Source of the DNA: Actinomycetospora chibensis
Lineage (GTDB): Bacteria; Actinomycetota; Actinomycetes; Mycobacteriales; Pseudonocardiaceae
Length of the DNA stretch: 64,000 nt
Assembly: GCF_028737215.1 (NCBI RefSeq)
Contig: NZ_JAQZAM010000001.1
Coordinates: 186,001-250,000, forward strand
Direction of reading: 5' to 3'
Below the pieces are notes generated by a model that did not search any database, was not told the origin of the DNA, and saw only the letters and a list, made by a program, of their open reading frames with translations. Positions 3,711 to 49,433 of this stretch are shown here, one piece after another. Each line of letters opens with the position of its first letter. Positions within the stretch are counted from its first letter, which is position 1. The position numbers and the translations under genes were made by a program.

Positions 3711-5275
3711 ATGAGCCACCACAGCGACACCCACGTCCTCGTCGTCGGCGCCGGCCCCGCGGGCCTCGCGACCGCCCTGTCCGCCGCCCGGCACGGCGCC
3801 CGGGTGCTGGTCGTCGAACGGCATCGGAGCACCTCGATCCATCCGCGGGCCTCCGGCCTGAGCACCCGCACCATGGAGATCTTCCGGACGTGGGGCGTCG
3901 CCGACGCCGTGCGCGCCGCGGGCTCGGTGATCCTCGCCCGCGCCTCGGCCGGGGCGACCCTCGCGGACCCCGACCTCGCCGAGAGCTCGATCGGCTATCC
4001 CCTGCCCCGCGAGGCCCTCGCCGTCAGCCCGACGTTCCCGGCCTGCTGCGCCCAGGACCTCCTGGAGCCGATCCTGCTCGCAGCGGTGCGCCGCGCGGGC
4101 GTCGACGTCCGGTTCGACACCGAGCTCACCGACCTCGCCGTCGACGACAGCGGCGCGTGGGCGCGGGTCCACGACCGGGTCACGGGCGCGACGACGACGG
4201 TGGCGAGCCGTTTCGTCGTGGGTGCGGACGGCCCGCGCAGCCGCGTGCGCACCGCGCTGGGCATCGGCACCGAGCACCTCGGCGGGATCGGGCGCCACAT
4301 CCAGCTGCTGTTCCGGGCCGACCTCTCCGCCGTGGTCGGCGAGTGGCAGCACGCGCTCTACATCGTGTCCCACCCGGAGGCCGCGGGGCTGTTCATCGCC
4401 TTCGGCGGCGACCGCTGGGGCTACGCCCGCCCCTGCCCCACCGACGACGACATCCCCGACGACGCGCAGTGGCTGACGCTCCTCCGGACGGCGTCCGGGA
4501 TCGCGGACCTGGCGCCCGAGCTGCTCGGCACCGCGGTGTTCGACCTGGAGGCCGAGCTCGCCACCACGAGCCGGGCCGGTGCGGCGTTCCTCGTCGGCGA
4601 CGCGGCGCACCGGATGACCCCGGTCGGCGGGGTCGGCCTCAACACCGCCGTCCAGGACGGCCACAACCTCGGCTGGAAGCTCGCCTGGGCCGCCCAGGGC
4701 CGGGCCGGCGAGCCGCTGCTGGCGAGCTACGCGCCCGAGCGCACACCCATCGGCGAGCGCCGGGCCCGGCGCTCGGTCCGCCCCGGCGAGCCCGACCCGG
4801 CCGACGGGCTCCTCGGCGACCTCGGGGCCGGCTACACCTCCCCCGTGCTCGCCGGCCACGCGCCCGCCCTGATCGACCCCGACGCCCTGGCCGCGGAGTC
4901 CGGCGAGCGGGCCCCGCACGTGTGGGTCCACGTCCACGGCCGGCGGTGCTCGACCCTCGACCTGTGGGACGGGCGCCTGACCCTGATCACCGCCGACGCG
5001 TCCTGGCGCGCGGCCGCCGAGGACCTGTCCCTCGCCGCCCCGGACCTCGCGAGCGCCCGGGTGACCAGCGCCTACCGGCTCGGCGACGGCGGCGCGGTGC
5101 TCGTGCGACCCGACGGCTACGTCGCCTGGCGGGCGGACGTCCCCGTCGCCGACCCGGTCGGAGCGCTCGCCGACGCCGTCGACCTCGCCCTCGGGCTCGC
5201 CGCTCGGGGAACGAACGGCGACTTCGTGCCGCGGGAAGCAGCGAACCCGCCGTTCGTTCCGACAGCCGGCGAGCC

Positions 5276-5294
<19 letters not shown>
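3711..5294 (+). CDS. FAD-dependent aromatic monooxygenase (PheA/TfdB/RdmE type)
   Basis: A 527-residue class A flavoprotein hydroxylase. It has an N-terminal Rossmann motif VVGAGPAGLATALSAARHG for FAD, the middle VVGADGPRSRVR (DG motif binding FAD and NADPH), and FLVGDAAHRMTPVGGVGLNT (GD motif) followed by QDGHNLGWKLAW. A thioredoxin-like C-terminal domain follows, as in phenol 2-monooxygenase-type enzymes. It should hydroxylate an aromatic or polyketide substrate using NAD(P)H and O2. It lies 45 bp behind the LuxR regulator and converges on livF with a 19-bp overlap of coding ends. The substrate is not predictable. Confidence 0.9.
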
Positions 5295-5991
<697 letters not shown>

Positions 5992-5995
<4 letters not shown>

Positions 5996-6933
5996 GGGGC
6001 GGACTCCTCATCGAGGTCGCCGCCCAGGTACGCCGCGACGACCGCGGGGTCCCTGCGGACCTCGTCGGGGATCCCGTCGGCGATCTTGCGGCCGAAGTCG
6101 AGCACGACGAGACGGTCGGTCACGCCGAGGACGACGCGCATGTCGTGCTCGACGATGACGACCGTGTACCCGTCGTCGCGGATCTTGAGGATGAGCTCGG
6201 AGAGCGCATCCTTCTCGCTGGCCGAGAACCCGGCGGCGGGCTCGTCGAGGCAGAGCAGCTTCGGCTCGGTGGCCAGGGCCCGGGCGATCTCGAGCCGGCG
6301 CTGGTAGCCGTAGGGCAGCGCCGTCGCCTTGTCCGCCGCGCGGTCGGCGATGCCGACGAACTCCAGCAGCGCCATGGCCTTCTCGACGGCCTCGCGCTCC
6401 TCGCGGCGGTGGCGGGGCAGACGCAGCAGCGCCCCCGGCACCGACGTGCGGTGCCGTGCGTCGGTGCCGACCACGACGTTCTCCAGCGCCGTCATCGCCC
6501 CGAACAGCCGGATGTTCTGGAACGTCCGGGCGACGCCGGTCTGGATGATCTTGTAGCGCTTCATCCGCGCCAGCGACCTGCCCTCGAGGAGGATGTCGCC
6601 CGAGGTCGGCCGGTAGACGCCCGTCATGATGTTGAAGCAGGTGGTCTTGCCGGCGCCGTTCGGGCCGATCAGCCCGAGGATCTCGCCGCGGCGGACGTCG
6701 AAGCTGACGTCGTCGAGGGCCGTCAGGCCCCCGAACCGCACCGTCAGCCCGTCCACCGCGAGCAGGGTCTCGCCCTTCGCGACGCTGAAATCGCGCTCCG
6801 GCGCGACCGAGGCCGACACCGCCGCGTCGTGCTCCGCGCGCTCGGCGGCGTCCATGTGCTCGAGGGACTCGAGGAGCCCCTCCTCGCTCGGGGGCGTGTC
6901 GAGCGACGTGTCGGTGGACGACGGCTCGCTCAT
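5992..6933 (-). CDS. livG: Branched-chain amino acid ABC transporter ATP-binding protein LivG
   Basis: A 313-residue ABC ATPase of the LivG type. Residues from about 60 contain [17 protein letters not shown], Walker [25 protein letters not shown] (a LivG hallmark), and Walker [13 protein letters not shown]. The first ~55 residues form an acidic Ser/Thr/Glu-rich extension absent from most LivG proteins. The ATG at 6933 was chosen because it overlaps the livM stop (ATGA). It pairs with LivF as the nucleotide-binding dimer. In Walker B and the following loop, [13 protein letters not shown] is normal for the family. Confidence 0.93.
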
Positions 6934-8099
6934 TCCCCACCTCCCCGCGGCGAGGTTCCGGCATGGTCGTCGGGCACCGTCTCCGGCAGGTCGCCCCGCG
7001 CCTTGCTCGACGGTGTCAACCCGCTCGGTGCCACGGCCGCCCCCGCCCCGAACAACTTCTGGTACGCCTGTCTGCCGTTGGCCAGCAGGTGCTGGCGCAT
7101 CCCGAGCAGACCCTGCGGGCGGAAGATCATCAGGACGATGAGGGCGACGCCGAAGATCAGGAAGCGGTAGGTCGGCTCGAACTGGAAGCGGTCGGGGATG
7201 TACGAGACGAGGAACGCCCCGAGGATCACGCCGACCTTGTTGCCCTGCCCGCCGAGCACCACCGCGGCGAGGTACAACGTCGACGTCGTGATGTCGAAGC
7301 GCTGGTTGTTGACGTAGCCGACCTGGGCGGCGAACAACGTGCCCGACAGACCGCCGACCGCCGCGCCGATCGCGAAGGCCCAGATCTTGAACCGGTAGGT
7401 CGGGACGCCGGAGAGCTCCGCGGCGTCCTCGTCCTCGCGGACGGCGATCCACGCGCGACCCACGCGCGAGCGCTCGAGGTTCCCCATGAACAGCAGGACG
7501 ATCACGATGATCATGACCGCGAGCCAGTAGAAGCCGAGGGCGTCGGTCTGCGAGAAGATCGGGGTGCCGTCGGGGAAGTCGCCGCCGGGACGCGCGATGT
7601 TCTGGAAGCCGCGGTTGCCGCGCAGCGGGTCGACGTTGTCGGCGAGCAGCCGGACGATCTCCCCGAAGCCGAGCGTGACGATTGCCAGGTAGTCGCCGCG
7701 CAGCCGCAGGGTCGGCGTCCCGAGGATGACCCCCGAGACCATCGTGACCACCATCGCGATCGGCACGATGACCAGCCACGGGTAGCGCACACCCAGCTCG
7801 GAGTCCGGGCTGGACAGCAGCGCCGCGGTGTACGCGCCGATGGCGAAGAAGCCGACGTAGCCGAGGTCGAGCAGGCCCGCCTGGCCGATGACGACGTTGA
7901 GCCCGATCGCGATGAGCGCGAACACCGCCGCGTTGAACAGCGAGATCGGGAAGTCGGTGTAGGGCTCGGTCGTGATGATCGGTGGGTTGAGCACCGGCAG
8001 CGCGAGCAGGAAGAGCACGACCGGGACCATGTAGCCCCACTGCGCCGGCCTGCTCTTCGCGTTCCACCAGTGCGAGACCCCTGCCATCCGTTCCCTCAT
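6930..8099 (-). CDS. livM: Branched-chain amino acid ABC transporter permease LivM
   Basis: A 389-residue integral membrane permease. Its N-terminal membrane segment starts near [17 protein letters not shown]. The LivM core follows with [38 protein letters not shown] and a cytoplasmic coupling loop with [18 protein letters not shown] (EAA-like). It ends in a hydrophilic 40-residue tail. With LivH it forms the translocation pore. The start at 8099 gives an ATGA overlap with livH, so the genes are co-translated. Confidence 0.93.
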
Positions 8100-40315: not shown

Positions 40316-40540
40316 AGACCCGATGCGCATCACGAGAACCCCGTCCGGATCGCACGGCGCAACGGCGCCACCGAACGCGGTGCCCCGAGTTCCGGGTAGC
40401 CGCCGAGGATGGCGTCCAGCCACACTGGACGGGTTGATGGTCCCGTGAGGGGTGAACACCCGGGGGCCGACTCGTATGGCTACTCGCGCTTCCTGACCTC
40501 AACGGCCTCGAGCGCAACGTCCTAGAGGACTACACCCGTG

Positions 40541-41425
40541 ATGAGCGCGAAGAACGAATCGGGTTCCGACGCGTCGCAGGTCGGCGAATCGAACGGAGGC
40601 CCGCACCGGGACCTGACGGTGGCTCTGGCCACGGTCGCGGTCGCTTTCGACCGGTTCCGTCTCGCGACCGCGCGCGGGCTGCTCGGCGTGGGCAACACCG
40701 AGATGCTCGCGCTGACCGTCATGGCGATGCGCGGACCGCTCACGCCGAGCGAGCTCGCCGGCGAGGTCGGTATCAGCAACGCCGCAGCGACCAGCCTGCT
40801 CGACCGGCTCGAGGTCGAGAACCTGGCCACCCGGAACCGTCACCCCCGCGACCGGCGCAAGCTCGTGATCGAGCTGACCGCCGTCGGACGTACCGCCATC
40901 CAGCTCTACCTGGAGCGCATCACGGCCGTGGTCGAGCGCGGCGTGTCCGCCTGCAGCCCTGGTGAGCGGAGCGCGCTGCTGCCGTTCCTGCGCCAGGTTG
41001 CGCACGGGCTCGCGGAGGTGCCCGACCCGCCCCCGTTCCAGCCGCATGTCGAACTCGACGATCGCGGCGGGATCACGGCTCACCTCACCGGGGAGCTGGA
41101 CTTCGCGAGCGTCCCCGCTCTGGGCGACTGGCTCGATGAGCATGTGAGCGACGGCGCCGACAGCGTGACCATCGATCTGACGGCGGTGAGCTTCCTGTCC
41201 AGCGCGGGTATCCGGTTGCTCGTCGAGTTCCAGCACGGCCACCCCGGCGGCGGTGTCCGGCTGCACGCCCCACCGCAGAGCCCCGCCGGCCGGGCCTTGG
41301 CCCTTGCCGGGCTCCCCGCATCGGCACCCGGCGACCAGCACCGGATCACCGGTCGCGCAGAGGAACGCCCGCAGGAGGAGAGGCCACCTCAGGGACGGAG
41401 CCCGTACCCACCGTTCGGCGAGTGA
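40541..41425 (+). CDS. MarR-type winged-helix protein fused to a STAS domain
   Basis: A 294-residue two-domain protein. The MarR winged helix is at about 25-160: TEMLALTVMAMRGPLTPSEL, EVGISNAAATSLLDRLEVEN (recognition helix) and RHPRDRRKLVIELTAVGRTA (wing). The STAS domain at about 168-260 has GGITAHLTGELDFASVPALG and SVTIDLTAVSFLSSAGIRLL, with Ser at about 220-221 where anti-sigma antagonists are phosphorylated. The STAS part suggests that phosphorylation or partner binding controls DNA binding. A SpoIIE-type phosphatase is encoded 3 kb downstream. ATG 40541 is chosen over GTG 40538. Confidence 0.85.
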   Translation: MSAKNESGSDASQVGESNGGPHRDLTVALATVAVAFDRFRLATARGLLGVGNTEMLALTVMAMRGPLTPSELAGEVGISNAAATSLLDRLEVENLATRNRHPRDRRKLVIELTAVGRTAIQLYLERITAVVERGVSACSPGERSALLPFLRQVAHGLAEVPDPPPFQPHVELDDRGGITAHLTGELDFASVPALGDWLDEHVSDGADSVTIDLTAVSFLSSAGIRLLVEFQHGHPGGGVRLHAPPQSPAGRALALAGLPASAPGDQHRITGRAEERPQEERPPQGRSPYPPFGE

Positions 41426-41663: not shown

Positions 41664-43869
41664 GTGGGGCGATCAGGTCCGAGGCAGGGGGCGCGCGCCG
41701 TGCGACGGAGCCCATCGATCGACTTCGTGGCTCCGGGCACCCCGATCGATCGCAGCAATTGCGAGCGCGAGCCGATCCACACGCCCGGGGCGATCCAGCC
41801 CGGCGGCGCGCTGCTGGCGGCGGAGGCGCAGGACGGCACGATCGTTCAGGTGTCGGCCAATGCCGGCGCCCTGCTCGGACGTGAGACCGACCGGACGCTG
41901 GGCGCCTCGCTGAGCGAGGTGCTCGGCGAGGAGCTGGTCGGCGAGCTGCGACGTCGCTCCACCCTGCTCACCCCGAACCTACGGCCGGTGCGGGCGACGA
42001 TCGCGGGTGGCGAGTTCGACGCTTTCGCCTACCGCCCCGACGAGCAGCTCCTCGTCGTGGAGCTGGAGCTGGCCGCGGAGGCCGGCCGGCCCGGGACGGC
42101 GGACCTCCAGGAGCGGTTGGCGCAGTCGGTGGCGGCGTTGCAGGACACCTCGTCGGTGGAGGAGCTGCTGGTCCGGGCGGCGCGGGTCGTGCGTGAGCTG
42201 ACCGGCTTCGATCGGGTGTGGGCCGACCGGTTCGAGCCCGACGACCACGGCGTGATCGTCGCTGAGGACAAGCTCGAGCCGCTGCCCGCGTTCCTGGGGC
42301 TGCACTATCCGGCCAGCGACATCCCGGCCCAGGCACGCGCGCTCTACCTGCAGAACCGGCTGCGCCTCATCCCCGACGCGCAGGCCGAGCCGGTGCCGCT
42401 CGTGCCGCTCGTGAACCCCCTGACCGGCGCGTGGCTGGACGTCTCGGCGGGAGTGCTGCGGGCCGTGTCGCCGATGCACATCGAGTACCTGCGCAACATG
42501 GGCGCGACGGCGTCGATGTCGATCGCGCTGTCGGTCGGGAACCGGCTGTGGGGGCTGATCTCGGCGCATCACTACGCGGGTCCGCGGCAGGTGGGGCACG
42601 AGGTCCGCGCGACCTGTGAGCTGATCGGACTCGTCTGTTCGATGCAGCTCCAGGCGCTCGAAGCGCTCGAGACCAGCGAGCGGCGCGTCACACTCAGCGA
42701 GCACCGTACGGCCGTGCTCGAGCAGGTGGCCGCCGCGGAGACCATCCCCGAGGGCCTGGCGGACGCCGACGCGGCGCTCCTGGGCGTGTGCGACGCCGAC
42801 GGCGCAGCCGTACGCCTCGGATCGGAGCTGCGGTTGGTCGGACGCACCCCGGACGAGGCGGCGGTGCGGTCCCTGCTGGACGAGTTGGCGGCGCGCGACA
42901 CCGCTGACGTCTTCCAGGCCGCGTCGCTGGCGGCCGCCCTGCCCGGCCACGCGGGGCTGACCGACACGGCGAGCGGCCTCCTCGCCGTGCCGCTGGGGCA
43001 CGCGCGCGGCAACTACCTGGTGTGGTTCCGTCCGGAGTGGGTGCACACGGTCACCTGGGGTGGCGCGCGCGCCGCGACCGATCGAGGTGCCGCGCAGGCG
43101 CCGCTGGGCCCGCACGGTTCGTTCGCGCAGTGGGCGGAGTCGGTACGGGCCACCAGCCGCCCGTGGCGTGAGGTCGAGGTGGAATCGGTGCTCGAGCTCC
43201 GCGGCGGGCTGGGGACCTTCCTCCTGACCCGCGCCGAACAGCTGGCTGCTCTCAACGCCGAGCTCGCCCGCTCGAACGCCGATCTCGACGCGTTCGCCTA
43301 CATCGCCGCACACGACCTCAAGGAGCCCCTGCGCGGCATCAACAACTTCGCCACGTTCCTGGTCGAGGACTATCACGACACCCTCGGCGCCGAGGGCCGC
43401 GAGCAGCTGGCGACGATCATGCGGTTGGCCCGGGGCATGGGAGGCCTCCTGGACTCGCTGCTGGAGTACTCACGTATCGGCCGCGCCACGCTCGAGCCGG
43501 CGGACTTCGCCGTGTCCGAGCTGGTCGACGATGCGCGCGAACTGCTCGCCGGGCGCCTGACGGTCTCCCACGCCGCGCTGCTGGTGACCTCCGGCGAGCA
43601 GCGGCTGTACGGCGACCGCAGCCGGGTGCGGCAGGTGCTGGTCAACCTCGTCGCCAACGCGATCAAGTACAACGAGCACGCGCAGCCTCAGGTCGAGATC
43701 TCCGCCTGCCGGCTGTCCGAGACCCGCCGGGGTATCGAGCTGGCCGGACCGGACCGCCGGGTTGACGATCGCGCGACGCATCGTCGAGCGGCACGGCGGC
43801 ATACTCTGGGTCGACGACTCGGCGCTCGGGCTCGGGTCCGTCCTGTGTTTCACGCTGGAGGCGCCATGA
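41664..43869 (+). pseudogene. Bacteriophytochrome histidine kinase with deleted, frameshifted ATPase domain
   Basis: The photosensor is complete: Cys at about 33 in NCEREPIHTPGAIQPGG (biliverdin attachment), GAF with PASDIP at 216-221, SPMHIEYLRNMG and GLISAHHY, and PHY with PHGSF in place of PRxSF (483-487). HisKA follows with AYIAAHDLKEPLR (His about 550). The ATPase keeps its N box (NLVANAIKYN), but the G1 and F boxes are missing. The G2 end, GLTIARRIVERHGG and VLCFTLEAP, is in another frame and stops at 43869. The reading frame from 41664 runs on into the response regulator to 44330. The start is uncertain; GTG 41727 is an alternative. Confidence 0.8.
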
Positions 43870-44330
43870 GCAGCGCTGAGCTCGAATCGCTGGCGGTCGT
43901 CGAGGACAACGACGAGGACTTCACCGCGCTCTGCCGCGCGCTGCGCGGGACCACGATCGGTGAGCACATCGTGCGCTTCCGCAGTGGTGAGGAGGCACTC
44001 GAGCGCCTGATCGGAGATCGCGCGACCCCCGACCCGTGGCCGATGCTGGTGCTGCTCGACCTGAACCTCCCCGGCCGACGCGGGCTGGACGTGCTCAGCG
44101 ATCTCAAGGACGACCCGTTCGCCCGGGTGATGCCGGTCGTCGTCGTGTCGGGCTCCACGCGTCAGGAGGACATCGACGCCGCCTACCGACGAGGCGCCAA
44201 CGCCTACCTGATCAAAGCGCTGGAGTTCGGCGAGCTGCAGAGGGGGCTGCGCGCGCTCCAGGAATTCTGGTTCCTCGTCGCCCACCCGACGCCGCCCCGC
44301 CGTGGCCGGACCGGAGCAGGGGTGCCATGA
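43866..44330 (+). CDS. Single-domain response regulator (Rcp1/CheY-like)
   Basis: A 154-residue receiver-only protein. Acidic residues are in AVVEDNDEDF, the phospho-acceptor Asp is at about 65 in MLVLLDLNLPGRRGLD, the switch Ser in VVVVSGSTRQ and the Lys in YLIKALEF. Such proteins pair with phytochrome kinases (Cph1/Rcp1). ATG 43866 overlaps the old kinase stop by 4 nt (ATGA), showing that the kinase originally ended here. Because of the frameshift it can now also be translated as the tail of the phytochrome ORF. Its own stop overlaps the next start by 4 nt. Confidence 0.9.
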   Translation: MSSAELESLAVVEDNDEDFTALCRALRGTTIGEHIVRFRSGEEALERLIGDRATPDPWPMLVLLDLNLPGRRGLDVLSDLKDDPFARVMPVVVVSGSTRQEDIDAAYRRGANAYLIKALEFGELQRGLRALQEFWFLVAHPTPPRRGRTGAGVP

Positions 44331-46579
44331 CCTCCTCGGAAGCGAGCGGCACCACCCCAGCCGACGTGGGAACCGTCCTCGTCATCGACGACAGCCCCGA
44401 GAACCGCTACGCGGTGCGGCGCGCGTTCGTGCGCGAGGGCTTCACGGTGCAGGAGGCCGACACCGGCGCCCTCGCTCTCGTCCGTGCCGCCGAGGACCCC
44501 GACCTCGTCGTGCTCGACGTCAACCTGCCCGACATGAGCGGCTTCGAGGTGTGCCGCCGGCTCAAGGCCGCCCCGCGAACCGCGCACGTGCCCGTGCTGC
44601 ACCTGTCCCAGACGCGCGTCGACGATGCCGCGCGCGTCCACGGGCTCGACGGCGGCGCCGACGCCTACCTCACCGAGCCGGTCGACCCGGCCGTCCTCGT
44701 GGCCACCGCCCGCGCGCTGCTGCGCATGCGCCGCGCCGAGGCCCGTCTGCGCCGCGAGCTCACCCAGGCGAAGATGTTGCAGGAACTGGCCGGAACGCTG
44801 GCCGCGGCCCACACCGCGGACGAGATGGCCGCGGAGATCGTCGCGAACGCCCACCGGGTGGTCAACGCCCATCACACCCAGCTGGGACTGCTCGACCGGG
44901 AGGCTGCGGTGGTGGCGCTCCGCCACGGTCCCGGGCCGGGCCCCCGCTCCGGCGACGGCTGGGAGCAGGTCCCGCTGGCCACGCCGACCCCGATGACGGC
45001 GGTGATCGAGTCGGGCCGTCCGCAGGTCTTCGGCAGCCGCGAGGCGCCGCTGGCGTCCTTCCCGCAGGCGGCGACGAACGGATCGGGCTGCCGGACGATG
45101 GCGGTGGTGCCGATCGCGCTCCCCAACGGTCAGGTGGTGGGCGCGTTGGCCGCGGCGTGGACAGAGGAGAACGCGGCGGACGAGCTCACGATGACGGTGC
45201 TCGCCGATCTCGCACTCCGCTGCGGAGCGGTCCTGCTCCGCGGGCAGCTGCAGAGCCGCCGTGCCCTCAAGCTGGAACGCTCGGAACTGACCGCTCGCGT
45301 GCTCGGCGAGCTGGAGACCGCCGGTTCGGCGGCCGCGCGCTGCCGACGGCTCATCGACCTGGTGGTGCCGGCCCTGGCCGACTATGCCGTCGTCGAGCAG
45401 CCGGGCCCGCCGCGTCGTGTCCTCGCGCTCGCTCATCGGGATCCGCACCTGCGCGAGACGCTGCGCATGCTGCGGGAGCATCACGCGCTGCCACCCCGGG
45501 CGGCCCACTCCACGCATCGGGCTGCCGCCGGGGAGTCTCACCTGATCGAGCGCATCACCCCGGAGCGGGTCGCCGAGTACGCCCTGGACCCGCCGACCGC
45601 AGCGCTGCTGGAGGAGCTCGGGCCACGCTCGCACATCTCCGTGCCGCTCATCGGCGGGGACACCGTCATGATGCTGGGCATCAGCCACCCGGACCGGCCG
45701 GACTACACCCCGGCTGATCTCGCCTACGTACAGGAACTCGCTGCGCGCGCCGGATCGAGCATCGCCACCGCCCGGTTGCTCGAGCACGACCACACGACCG
45801 CTGAGCGGCTGCAACATGCGCTGCTCCCCGCCACACCGCTCACCCATCCCCGCCTGCAGACGGCCTCCCGCTACCTGCCGGGGGACGGATCGCTGCACGT
45901 CGGCGGCGACTGGCACGAGAGCATCCTGCTGCCCGACGGGCGGGCGGTCGTCGCCGTGGGCGACATCGTCGGGCACGGGTTGGAGGCCGCCGCCACCATG
46001 GGCCAGGTGCGCACGGCATTCGCCGTGCTCGCGCCACGCAGCAGCGGCCCCGCCGATCTGATCAACGAGATCAGCGCCTTCGCCGCGACCCTGCCCTCGG
46101 CCCGCTACTCCACGATCGCCTGCGCGGTGATCGACCCCCACCGGGCCGACGTCACCTACGCCTGCGCGGGCCACCCCCCGCCCATCCTTGTCACTCCCGA
46201 GGGCCGGGCCGATCTCCTCACCGCCGGTCGCTCCCCGCTGCTGGCGTTCCCGGTAGCCGAGCACCGCGAGGAGGCAGCCGTCGCGCTACCGATCGGGTCG
46301 ACCCTGCTGCTCTACTCCGACGGGCTCGTCGAACGCCGCGGAGAGATCATCGACATCGGGCTGGAACGGCTGCGCTCCACCGCGCAACGCACCGCCACCC
46401 TGCCCGTCGGCTCCCAGTGCGACGCCATCCTGACCACCCTCACCCGTCTCCAGCCCCGCTACGACGACATCGTCCTGCTCGCCGCGCGACTCACCCCCGC
46501 CGCCGACGAGCAGCCGCAGCCACAGCTCCAGCACTCGCCACGGTCGAGCCCGCCGGCCACACCTGCCCTCCGGAGCTGA
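44327..46579 (+). CDS. Receiver-GAF-SpoIIE/PP2C phosphatase
   Basis: A 750-residue protein. The receiver domain at about 15-135 has VLVIDDSPENRYAVRRAF, phospho-acceptor Asp about 64 in DLVVLDVNLPDMSG. GAF-like domains lie at about 160-310 and 330-495. A C-terminal SpoIIE-type PPM phosphatase has LHVGGDWHESILLPDGRAVV, AVGDIVGHGLEAAA, YACAGHPPPIL and LLLYSDGLVERRGE; the metal-binding Asp residues in GGDW, VGD and SDG are present. It should dephosphorylate Ser/Thr on a STAS partner; the MarR-STAS protein upstream is a candidate. ATG 44327 overlaps the response-regulator stop (ATGA). Confidence 0.92.
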   Translation: MTSSEASGTTPADVGTVLVIDDSPENRYAVRRAFVREGFTVQEADTGALALVRAAEDPDLVVLDVNLPDMSGFEVCRRLKAAPRTAHVPVLHLSQTRVDDAARVHGLDGGADAYLTEPVDPAVLVATARALLRMRRAEARLRRELTQAKMLQELAGTLAAAHTADEMAAEIVANAHRVVNAHHTQLGLLDREAAVVALRHGPGPGPRSGDGWEQVPLATPTPMTAVIESGRPQVFGSREAPLASFPQAATNGSGCRTMAVVPIALPNGQVVGALAAAWTEENAADELTMTVLADLALRCGAVLLRGQLQSRRALKLERSELTARVLGELETAGSAAARCRRLIDLVVPALADYAVVEQPGPPRRVLALAHRDPHLRETLRMLREHHALPPRAAHSTHRAAAGESHLIERITPERVAEYALDPPTAALLEELGPRSHISVPLIGGDTVMMLGISHPDRPDYTPADLAYVQELAARAGSSIATARLLEHDHTTAERLQHALLPATPLTHPRLQTASRYLPGDGSLHVGGDWHESILLPDGRAVVAVGDIVGHGLEAAATMGQVRTAFAVLAPRSSGPADLINEISAFAATLPSARYSTIACAVIDPHRADVTYACAGHPPPILVTPEGRADLLTAGRSPLLAFPVAEHREEAAVALPIGSTLLLYSDGLVERRGEIIDIGLERLRSTAQRTATLPVGSQCDAILTTLTRLQPRYDDIVLLAARLTPAADEQPQPQLQHSPRSSPPATPALRS

Positions 46580-46972
46580 ACGGCCGCCGTTCTGCCCGGG
46601 CGGGACCTGCCCGTCGCACCTCCTCCTGCAGTCCGCCCGGCAGGTCGTTGTCGACACCGGTCCGAGCGTGGTCGACCGTCAACGGTGCCCGCCGGCCTCG
46701 TGAGGCGAGAGGATTCGACGAGCGAAACGTCCGCTCGGCGAAACTTCTCCCGGTCGGACTCCTCGGCGAAGATGCGCCCGACGGCGCCTGCCGCGGCACG
46801 GGGCAGGGTCCTAGCGTCGACGGTGCTCCGAGGAGCACGGAACGCCCCGATCCGGGCCGCGGAGAGAGGGCCGCCGGCGTCCCTGCCCCGGACGCCGGCG
46901 GTCCACCCGCACGCCACGCCAGGACCGGGACGGTGTATGCCCAGATCGCGCGGTGCCGGGCGAGATGTCTGC
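46580..46972. other. Intergenic region, no gene recognised
   Basis: The frame of the following ANTAR gene is open through most of this stretch, but its translation is Arg/Ala/Pro-rich and unlike any domain. I treat it as the upstream region of the ANTAR gene. No clear promoter stands out. Confidence 0.4.
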
Positions 46973-47374
46973 GTGACTCCTGACGTCGTGCGGAAGAGCG
47001 CGCCCTGCACCACCGACGTGTTCGGTTCCGCGGAGGACCGACGTCGCTCCACCGAGGACGTGACGGACCTCCACGAGCGCATCGAGCGCGCGGAACGCAG
47101 GGCCGAGAAGGCCGAACAGCGGCGCGACGACCACGAGCGCGCCGTCGTCACCCGAGCCCGTATCGATCAGGTCGAGGGCATCCTGATGTCCGGCTTCGGC
47201 CTGGAGCCGGACGACGCGTTCGACGTGCTCGTCTGGCTCTCGCAGCAGACCAACACCGAGCTCGTCCATGTCTGCGACGACATCCTCCGTGCCGTGCGCA
47301 CCGTCGACGTCCCCGACGCCTGCCGCGACGAGATCACCGCGGTGCTCGATCGCCTTCTCCGGCGGACCGCGTGA
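46973..47374 (+). CDS. Coiled-coil ANTAR-domain protein
   Basis: A protein of about 133 residues. A charged helix (DLHERIERAERRAEKAEQRR) that should form a coiled coil is followed by an ANTAR domain: VVTRARIDQVEGILMSGFGL, EPDDAFDVLVWLSQQTNTEL and VHVCDDILRAV. ANTAR binds RNA hairpins to prevent termination. With no GAF or receiver domain, control may come through dimerisation. The start is uncertain: GTG 46973 or ATG 46937. Its stop overlaps the next small gene (GTGA). Confidence 0.78.
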   Translation: MTPDVVRKSAPCTTDVFGSAEDRRRSTEDVTDLHERIERAERRAEKAEQRRDDHERAVVTRARIDQVEGILMSGFGLEPDDAFDVLVWLSQQTNTELVHVCDDILRAVRTVDVPDACRDEITAVLDRLLRRTA

Positions 47375-48773: not shown

Positions 48774-49433
48774 TCACGTCGAGACCCAGGTCCGGTCGTC
48801 CCGCGGGGTGCTTCCCACCGGCACGACGATCTCGTTGCGGCGTCGGAACGGCAGCGTCCAGGGTGGGTCGTAGAACCACGCGGCCGCGTCCCCGATGGTG
48901 TCGATGCCGCGGTCGCTCAGAGTCTGCAACAGCTCGTCGGTCCGGGCGGCGACGGCTCGTGCGCCACGGTCGCCACTGAAGCGCAACACCGCGACGGTCT
49001 CTCCGGGCACCGTCACCAGCCTGACCCCGTCATCGTCAGGTACGGGCAGGGTCTCCAGCGTCCACTTCGCCGGCATGAAGAACCGGATCCTCCACCCACC
49101 GTCGTCCTGACGGGACTGGGCGACGGGGGCGGTCATGGCGATCTCGTCGCCACCGGCCGGCTGCTGCGCCACCGGCGCCGTCATCGCGATCTCGTCGCTG
49201 CGGTGGTTGGCCCCGAAGATGTAGCGTGCCAGGCGCCGGAACCCGAGGTTCCGGGCCTGGTCCTCGTCGCCCGCGACCACCGTCTCCGCCGCGATCCGCG
49301 GTCCGTACCGCCGTAGCTCGACGCTCTCCGTCAACGGCCGACGAAGATGGTGCGGTTCCTCCGTGCCGACCCGGATCCCGCCGACCGACAACACGGACTC
49401 GACCACCTGCACGGCGAGCTTGCGGACGTCCAC
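48774..49433 (-). CDS. SOUL-family heme-binding protein
   Basis: A 219-residue SOUL/HBP-family protein: VELRRYGPRIAAETVV, NLGFRRLARYIFGANHR, DEIAMTAPV, RIRFFMPAKWTLETLPVPDD and ETVAVLRFSGDRGARAVA. SOUL proteins bind heme or other tetrapyrroles. DEIAMTAPVAQ occurs twice, 16 residues apart, which I have seen in other bacterial members. ATG 49433 gives a family-like N-terminus. It is near the bacteriophytochrome, whose chromophore is heme-derived, but no heme oxygenase is present. Confidence 0.88.
   Translation of the reverse strand: MDVRKLAVQVVESVLSVGGIRVGTEEPHHLRRPLTESVELRRYGPRIAAETVVAGDEDQARNLGFRRLARYIFGANHRSDEIAMTAPVAQQPAGGDEIAMTAPVAQSRQDDGGWRIRFFMPAKWTLETLPVPDDDGVRLVTVPGETVAVLRFSGDRGARAVAARTDELLQTLSDRGIDTIGDAAAWFYDPPWTLPFRRRNEIVVPVGSTPRDDRTWVST

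Follow-up and report, generated by a model that had tools for sequence, protein, structure and literature searches.

A phytochrome kinase gene of Actinomycetospora chibensis that has probably lost its ATPase core through an out-of-frame deletion

We analyzed a 64-kb stretch of the A. chibensis genome (hereafter, the window), in which the ORF listing contains an 888-codon open frame at positions 41664-44330 of the + strand, the strand that also carries the rest of its operon and the upstream MarR-STAS gene. Pfam searches with the 888-aa translation revealed PAS_2 (aa 33 to 136), GAF (aa 165 to 325), PHY (aa 346 to 520), HisKA (aa 542 to 606), and Response_reg (aa 744 to 859) domains, and the complete order is PAS-GAF-PHY, HisKA, a HATPase domain reduced to its N-box half, ∼40 out-of-frame residues, and a complete receiver. 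The structure, frame, and coordinates proposed in the first-pass annotation, including its claim that a single open frame of 888 codons joins photosensor, HisKA, and receiver, were thus borne out by the ORF listing and by Pfam. The photosensory PAS-GAF-PHY module (41700..43223, from Pfam and the homologue alignment) keeps the chromophore Cys33 (888-aa frame numbering), and its start codon is likely the GTG at 41700, which has a GGCAGGGGG stretch upstream, rather than the codon at 41664. It is followed by the HisKA (DHp) region with the phospho-acceptor His550 (43287..43481, from Pfam and the alignment), by the N-box half of HATPase_c (43611..43733), which ends at the motif ETRRG when the sequences of the window gene and of its closest relative are compared, by a deletion junction zone (43734..43755), and by a remnant of the ATPase C terminus (43756..43869), which begins with the last part of the G2 box and runs through the former stop codon TGA (43867-43869). 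This remnant is in the +1 frame, and the fusion reads its DNA out of frame.

The gene for the single-domain receiver (response regulator; 43866..44330; Response_reg, whole-protein E value of 3.6e-13) has its own ATG at 43866 inside an ATGA overlap, with GGAGG just ahead of the ATG. A second ATGA overlap, at 44327, connects it to a gene encoding a receiver-GAF-GAF-SpoIIE protein with a PP2C-type phosphatase domain (44327..46579; Pfam, scanned on frame 44036-46576). Upstream of the phytochrome gene lies a MarR-STAS protein (40538..41425; Pfam MarR, STAS, and STAS_2), possibly a partner-switch component. An ANTAR-domain protein (46685-47374) is encoded directly after the SpoIIE gene, and a gene for a SOUL heme-binding protein (48774-49433), transcribed in the opposite direction, lies close to the phytochrome operon.

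Our comparisons relied on 48 photosensor homologues from whole genomes and genome contigs, a set that excludes the gene of the window itself and 11 duplicates. It comprises 41 kinase-type proteins and 7 with another output, which Pfam confirmed as SpoIIE in the 4 that were scanned. We searched for relatives in four overlapping samples, drawn from relatives (61 genomes), the family (390), the order (397), and the class (394), the order and class samples being parts of larger groups with matches at E 1e-100, and none of the matches listed, besides the window gene itself, exceeded 50% identity; the contig search returned relatives with best segments of up to 40% identity. The closest relative found, L099 (genome G665; L099/L090), belongs to another family of the same order and shares 50% identity over photosensor and HisKA. 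It has the same three overlapping genes, encoding a phytochrome kinase, a receiver, and a receiver-GAF-GAF-SpoIIE protein, and its HATPase_c is complete (2e-21, positions 1 to 107 of 111 in Pfam). No second phytochrome was found in the genome of A. chibensis itself, where the 8 other matches are confined to kinase or receiver regions. We also observed PAS-GAF-PHY modules fused directly to SpoIIE, without a kinase match, in a same-order family (L095 to L097) and in another genome of the class (L098); these would be light-controlled phosphatases, a class whose targets may include sigma-factor partner switches.

We then examined the ATPase region. In the 888-aa frame, HATPase_c is matched over profile positions 1 to 46 of 111 only (18.7 bits, below the family cut-off), and the +1-frame piece at 43600-43866 matches positions 75 to 108 (18.4 bits, also below the cut-off), so that positions ∼47 to 74, the site of the G1 and F boxes, are absent from both frames and no single frame of the window gene holds a HATPase_c with its N, G1, F, and G2 boxes. 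The split of the domain between two frames agrees with the claim of the first-pass annotation that a deletion removes the G1 and F boxes and shifts the frame. The +1 translation reads AGLTIARRIVERHGG...FTLEAP*, and the piece terminates in AGLTIARRIVERHGGILWVDDSALGLGSVLCFTLEAP followed by the TGA, which lies within the ATGA of the receiver start. That this overlap marks the original gene boundary, with the G2 end surviving in the other frame, had also been proposed, and the equivalent junction in L099 is indeed a GTGA overlap. The interval from ETRRG to AGL measures 55 residues (165 nt) in L099, G1 and F boxes included, and 22 nt in the window, as derived from the homologue alignment, the lengths of the segments, and L099 DNA; the net loss is 143 nt. 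In the alignment, 37 to 55 residues fill this gap in 41/41 kinase-type homologues, which puts the loss at ∼90 to 143 nt and always at a length of 3n+2; inspection by eye of 9 homologues located DNGIG (G1) and the F box within the lost part. A displaced copy of the ATPase piece was not found in the 64-kb window by tblastn with the segments of the 41 homologues, which gave only short weak matches (best E value of 0.02). Neither did we find relatives with the same organization and an alternative ATPase, the sole relative with the same operon having a normal HATPase_c.

The photosensor and HisKA had been described as intact, which proved accurate for HisKA and not fully so for the photosensor. HisKA is matched above the Pfam cut-off, its region shows 0 departures at columns conserved at ≥95%, and the column of His550 contains His in 41/48 homologues, the other 7 not being kinase-type. 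The photosensor is a PAS-GAF-PHY module with an N-terminal Cys (the Cys33 column holds 47 Cys and 1 gap among the 48 homologues). We compared it at 15 sites of the DrBphP GAF pocket: 13 are identical, 1 has Tyr for Phe (as in 20/48 homologues), and the equivalent of Tyr176 alone is out of line. At this position, aligned with Tyr176 of DrBphP in a numbering set by the DIP-motif Asp as residue 207, the window gene encodes D188 (codon 42225-42227), and 48/48 other homologues have Tyr. The PRxSF motif reads PHGSF at residues 483 to 487, as noted in the first-pass annotation, with H484 (codon 43113-43115) in place of an Arg that is present in 48/48 other homologues; the Phe of the motif varies among the 48. 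Finally, V509 replaces an Ala found in 48/48 other homologues. Departures at strictly invariant photosensor columns numbered 3 in the window gene, the highest count of 49, tied with the intact kinase L089 (3), and 1 in L099. Relaxing the threshold to 95% gave 4 departures versus 6 in L099, and 90% gave 9 versus 12; we do not claim a general decay of the photosensor, since its departures are not above those of the intact L099 at these thresholds.

According to excerpts of PMC11924222, the Tyr176-to-His variant of Cph1 combines a chromophore resembling that of Pr with a tongue resembling that of Pfr, so that chromophore and tongue are uncoupled, and is strongly fluorescent, and Arg472 of PRxSF forms a salt bridge with Asp207 in Pr; we found nothing on Asp at position 176 in these excerpts. 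The genome encodes a heme oxygenase (G000:C2), which makes biliverdin binding by the window phytochrome plausible.

Does the joined frame carry meaning? Given the ATGA overlap, any deletion of length 3n+2, one class in three, joins the sensor to the receiver frame. In the intact kinase-type homologues with a GC content of ≥65% (31 genes, the 10 of lower GC content being left out), the corresponding frame was open for at least 36 codons before the kinase stop in 29/31 and for at least 200 codons in 22/31; when low-GC genomes were included, it was open across the tail in 32/41. L099 itself contains a 923-codon wrong-frame ORF (4558-7329) that spans the entire intact kinase gene into the receiver, which calls for caution in interpreting long frames in GC-rich DNA. 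When the tail (43756-43866) is read in the old frame, its three codon positions have GC contents of 0.70/0.51/0.89; for the fused frame, the values are 0.89/0.70/0.51. This codon bias fits the old frame, which indicates that selection acted on the tail in that frame and that the shift is either recent or an artifact. The receiver, with its own ATG and GGAGG, need not depend on the fusion; it has the complete domain and start expected of a single-domain response regulator and could probably be produced on its own. In a hybrid histidine kinase, a single polypeptide carries an entire kinase core and, after it, a receiver; the core of the 888-aa frame is incomplete. In an AlphaFold2 model of residues 500 to 888, of modest quality (mean pLDDT of 73.7, pTM of 0.40), the DHp helices and the receiver were mostly folded, and pLDDT was <50 at residues 685 to 740, which include the out-of-frame linker; as the input alignment was poor at the receiver N terminus, we used the model for the linker and the broad domains only. 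The joined frame is most likely a by-product of the 3n+2 deletion length and of GC-rich DNA, an accident rather than a new protein. Between the two outcomes raised by the first-pass annotation, a dead kinase or a new light-responsive protein without kinase activity, we favor the first, and the second is weakened by the corresponding frame being open without selection in 29/31 homologues of high GC content.

With regard to the origin of the operon, a phytochrome match at E 1e-35 was found in 0/17 genus mates examined, and the matches listed for the SpoIIE protein in these 17 genomes had ≤41% identity, which together fit an acquisition of the operon by this genome; it may instead have been lost in the other species of the genus. 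Matches to the MarR-STAS protein in genus mates covered the MarR half only, to residue 165 of 295 at most, and these could possibly be counterparts with a diverged STAS part.

We propose that the window contains a bacteriophytochrome kinase gene that has undergone a real, recent loss-of-function deletion, out of frame and of ∼143 nt compared with L099, and we hold this explanation to be probable. The gap, the two frames, the intact relative, and the changed residues are direct observations. From them we infer that the loss is recent, that kinase activity is gone, and that the deletion exists in the organism rather than in the assembly. Several results weigh against this reading: the GC3 of the photosensor is still like that of a live gene, HisKA, 14/15 GAF pocket sites, and the receiver domain are kept, and a second genome with the same deletion, which would have confirmed it in another strain, was not found among the genomes searched.

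An assembly or sequencing error in the draft genome, the kinase of the organism being intact, would account for the preservation of the tail and of both gene overlaps in the old frame, and it is made easier to envisage by a draft assembly of 55 contigs, by DNA of ∼72% GC, and by an 8-base direct repeat, CCGCCGGG, whose copies flank the junction zone 30 bases apart. However, this repeat is short, and the loss of ∼90 to 143 bases within a 475-kb contig is atypical for a base-calling error. Moreover, two residues of central importance for the photochemistry are also changed in this gene, which suggests relaxed constraint. We regard such an error as unlikely, albeit deserving of consideration.

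It is more doubtful still that the cell produces the fused protein and benefits from it, as a light or biliverdin receptor whose DHp and tethered receiver would serve, without a kinase, as a phosphatase, a phosphate sink, or a scaffold for other kinases. The open frame with its complete receiver and HisKA, the 14/15 conserved pocket sites, and the heme oxygenase encoded in the genome would suit such a function, and in an engineered DrBphP-DrRR fusion the spectra are close to normal and phosphatase activity, although reduced, persists, as stated in passages of PMC9744887. However, that construct includes DrBphP in full length, joined through a tether of 12 residues that was designed (same passages), whereas the natural frame lacks the ATPase core and contains ∼40 out-of-frame residues within a stretch predicted with pLDDT of <50. 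In addition, chance alone is expected to give an open frame, the gene is altered at the Tyr and the Arg by which chromophore and tongue are coupled, and no second genome carrying the fusion was found among those searched. The most elaborate version, in which an expressed natural phytochrome-receiver protein has kept biliverdin binding and lost both kinase activity and light-to-tongue coupling, becoming a scaffold that is locked, possibly fluorescent, and either constitutive or blind to light and whose tethered receiver feeds or drains the phosphate of the SpoIIE pathway, appears to us very improbable.

The domains suggest an ancestral pathway in which a biliverdin-binding photosensor for red/far-red light controlled a HisKA-HATPase kinase, which would have exchanged phosphate with the single-domain receiver. 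The receiver-GAF-GAF-SpoIIE phosphatase would have relayed the signal, plausibly to a STAS-type sigma-factor partner switch, with perhaps the upstream MarR-STAS protein as its target. The ∼143-nt deletion would have removed the G1 and F boxes, without which ATP binding by the sensor is not expected and light input via the kinase would be lost. The coupling of light to the tongue is probably damaged too, by the Asp at the Tyr176 equivalent and the Arg-to-His change in PRxSF. The receiver and the phosphatase, both complete and with their own start codons, may answer other kinases.

Our finding is a fresh instance of a broken kinase, an already known kind of event, and as such is of modest interest. 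Disrupted sensor kinases are known; a passage of PMC2222644 gives an example in which an authentic frameshift affects a hybrid kinase of one pathovar of Pseudomonas syringae. A broken sensor kinase is an ordinary event, and the genus mates examined have no such kinase. The locus nevertheless offers a natural test of the fate of a receiver and a SpoIIE phosphatase once their light-sensing kinase is lost, and the gene is a natural variant at both the Tyr176 position and that of the PRxSF Arg. In addition, L099 suggests that another family of the order has a phytochrome-receiver-SpoIIE operon, through which red light could be connected to a sigma-factor partner switch. Among the titles and abstract openings listed for mainly open-access literature on broken or fused phytochromes, SpoIIE outputs, Tyr176, and PRxSF, we found no report of the window gene or of a like natural fusion.

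Compared with known systems, the window gene shares with the DrBphP and Cph1 phytochrome kinases the PAS-GAF-PHY-HisKA architecture, the N-terminal Cys, the DIP motif, and the pocket histidines; unlike them, it has no complete ATPase, an Asp at the Tyr176 equivalent, and a His for the PRxSF Arg. The L099/L090 kinase belongs to the same type of three-gene operon but has kept HATPase_c, the Tyr, and the PRxSF Arg. The engineered DrBphP-DrRR fusion, like the window frame, places a phytochrome and a receiver in one chain, yet it is man-made, with a designed tether and a full-length DrBphP (passages of PMC9744887). PDB entry 8avv carries both DrBphP and DrRR as molecule names and would correspond to this construct. 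Lastly, a figure legend in PMC9587094 already gives SpoIIE/PPM phosphatase as a phytochrome effector; in phytochromes with such an output, the phosphatase is part of the same chain, whereas in the window it is encoded by a separate gene and has a receiver of its own.
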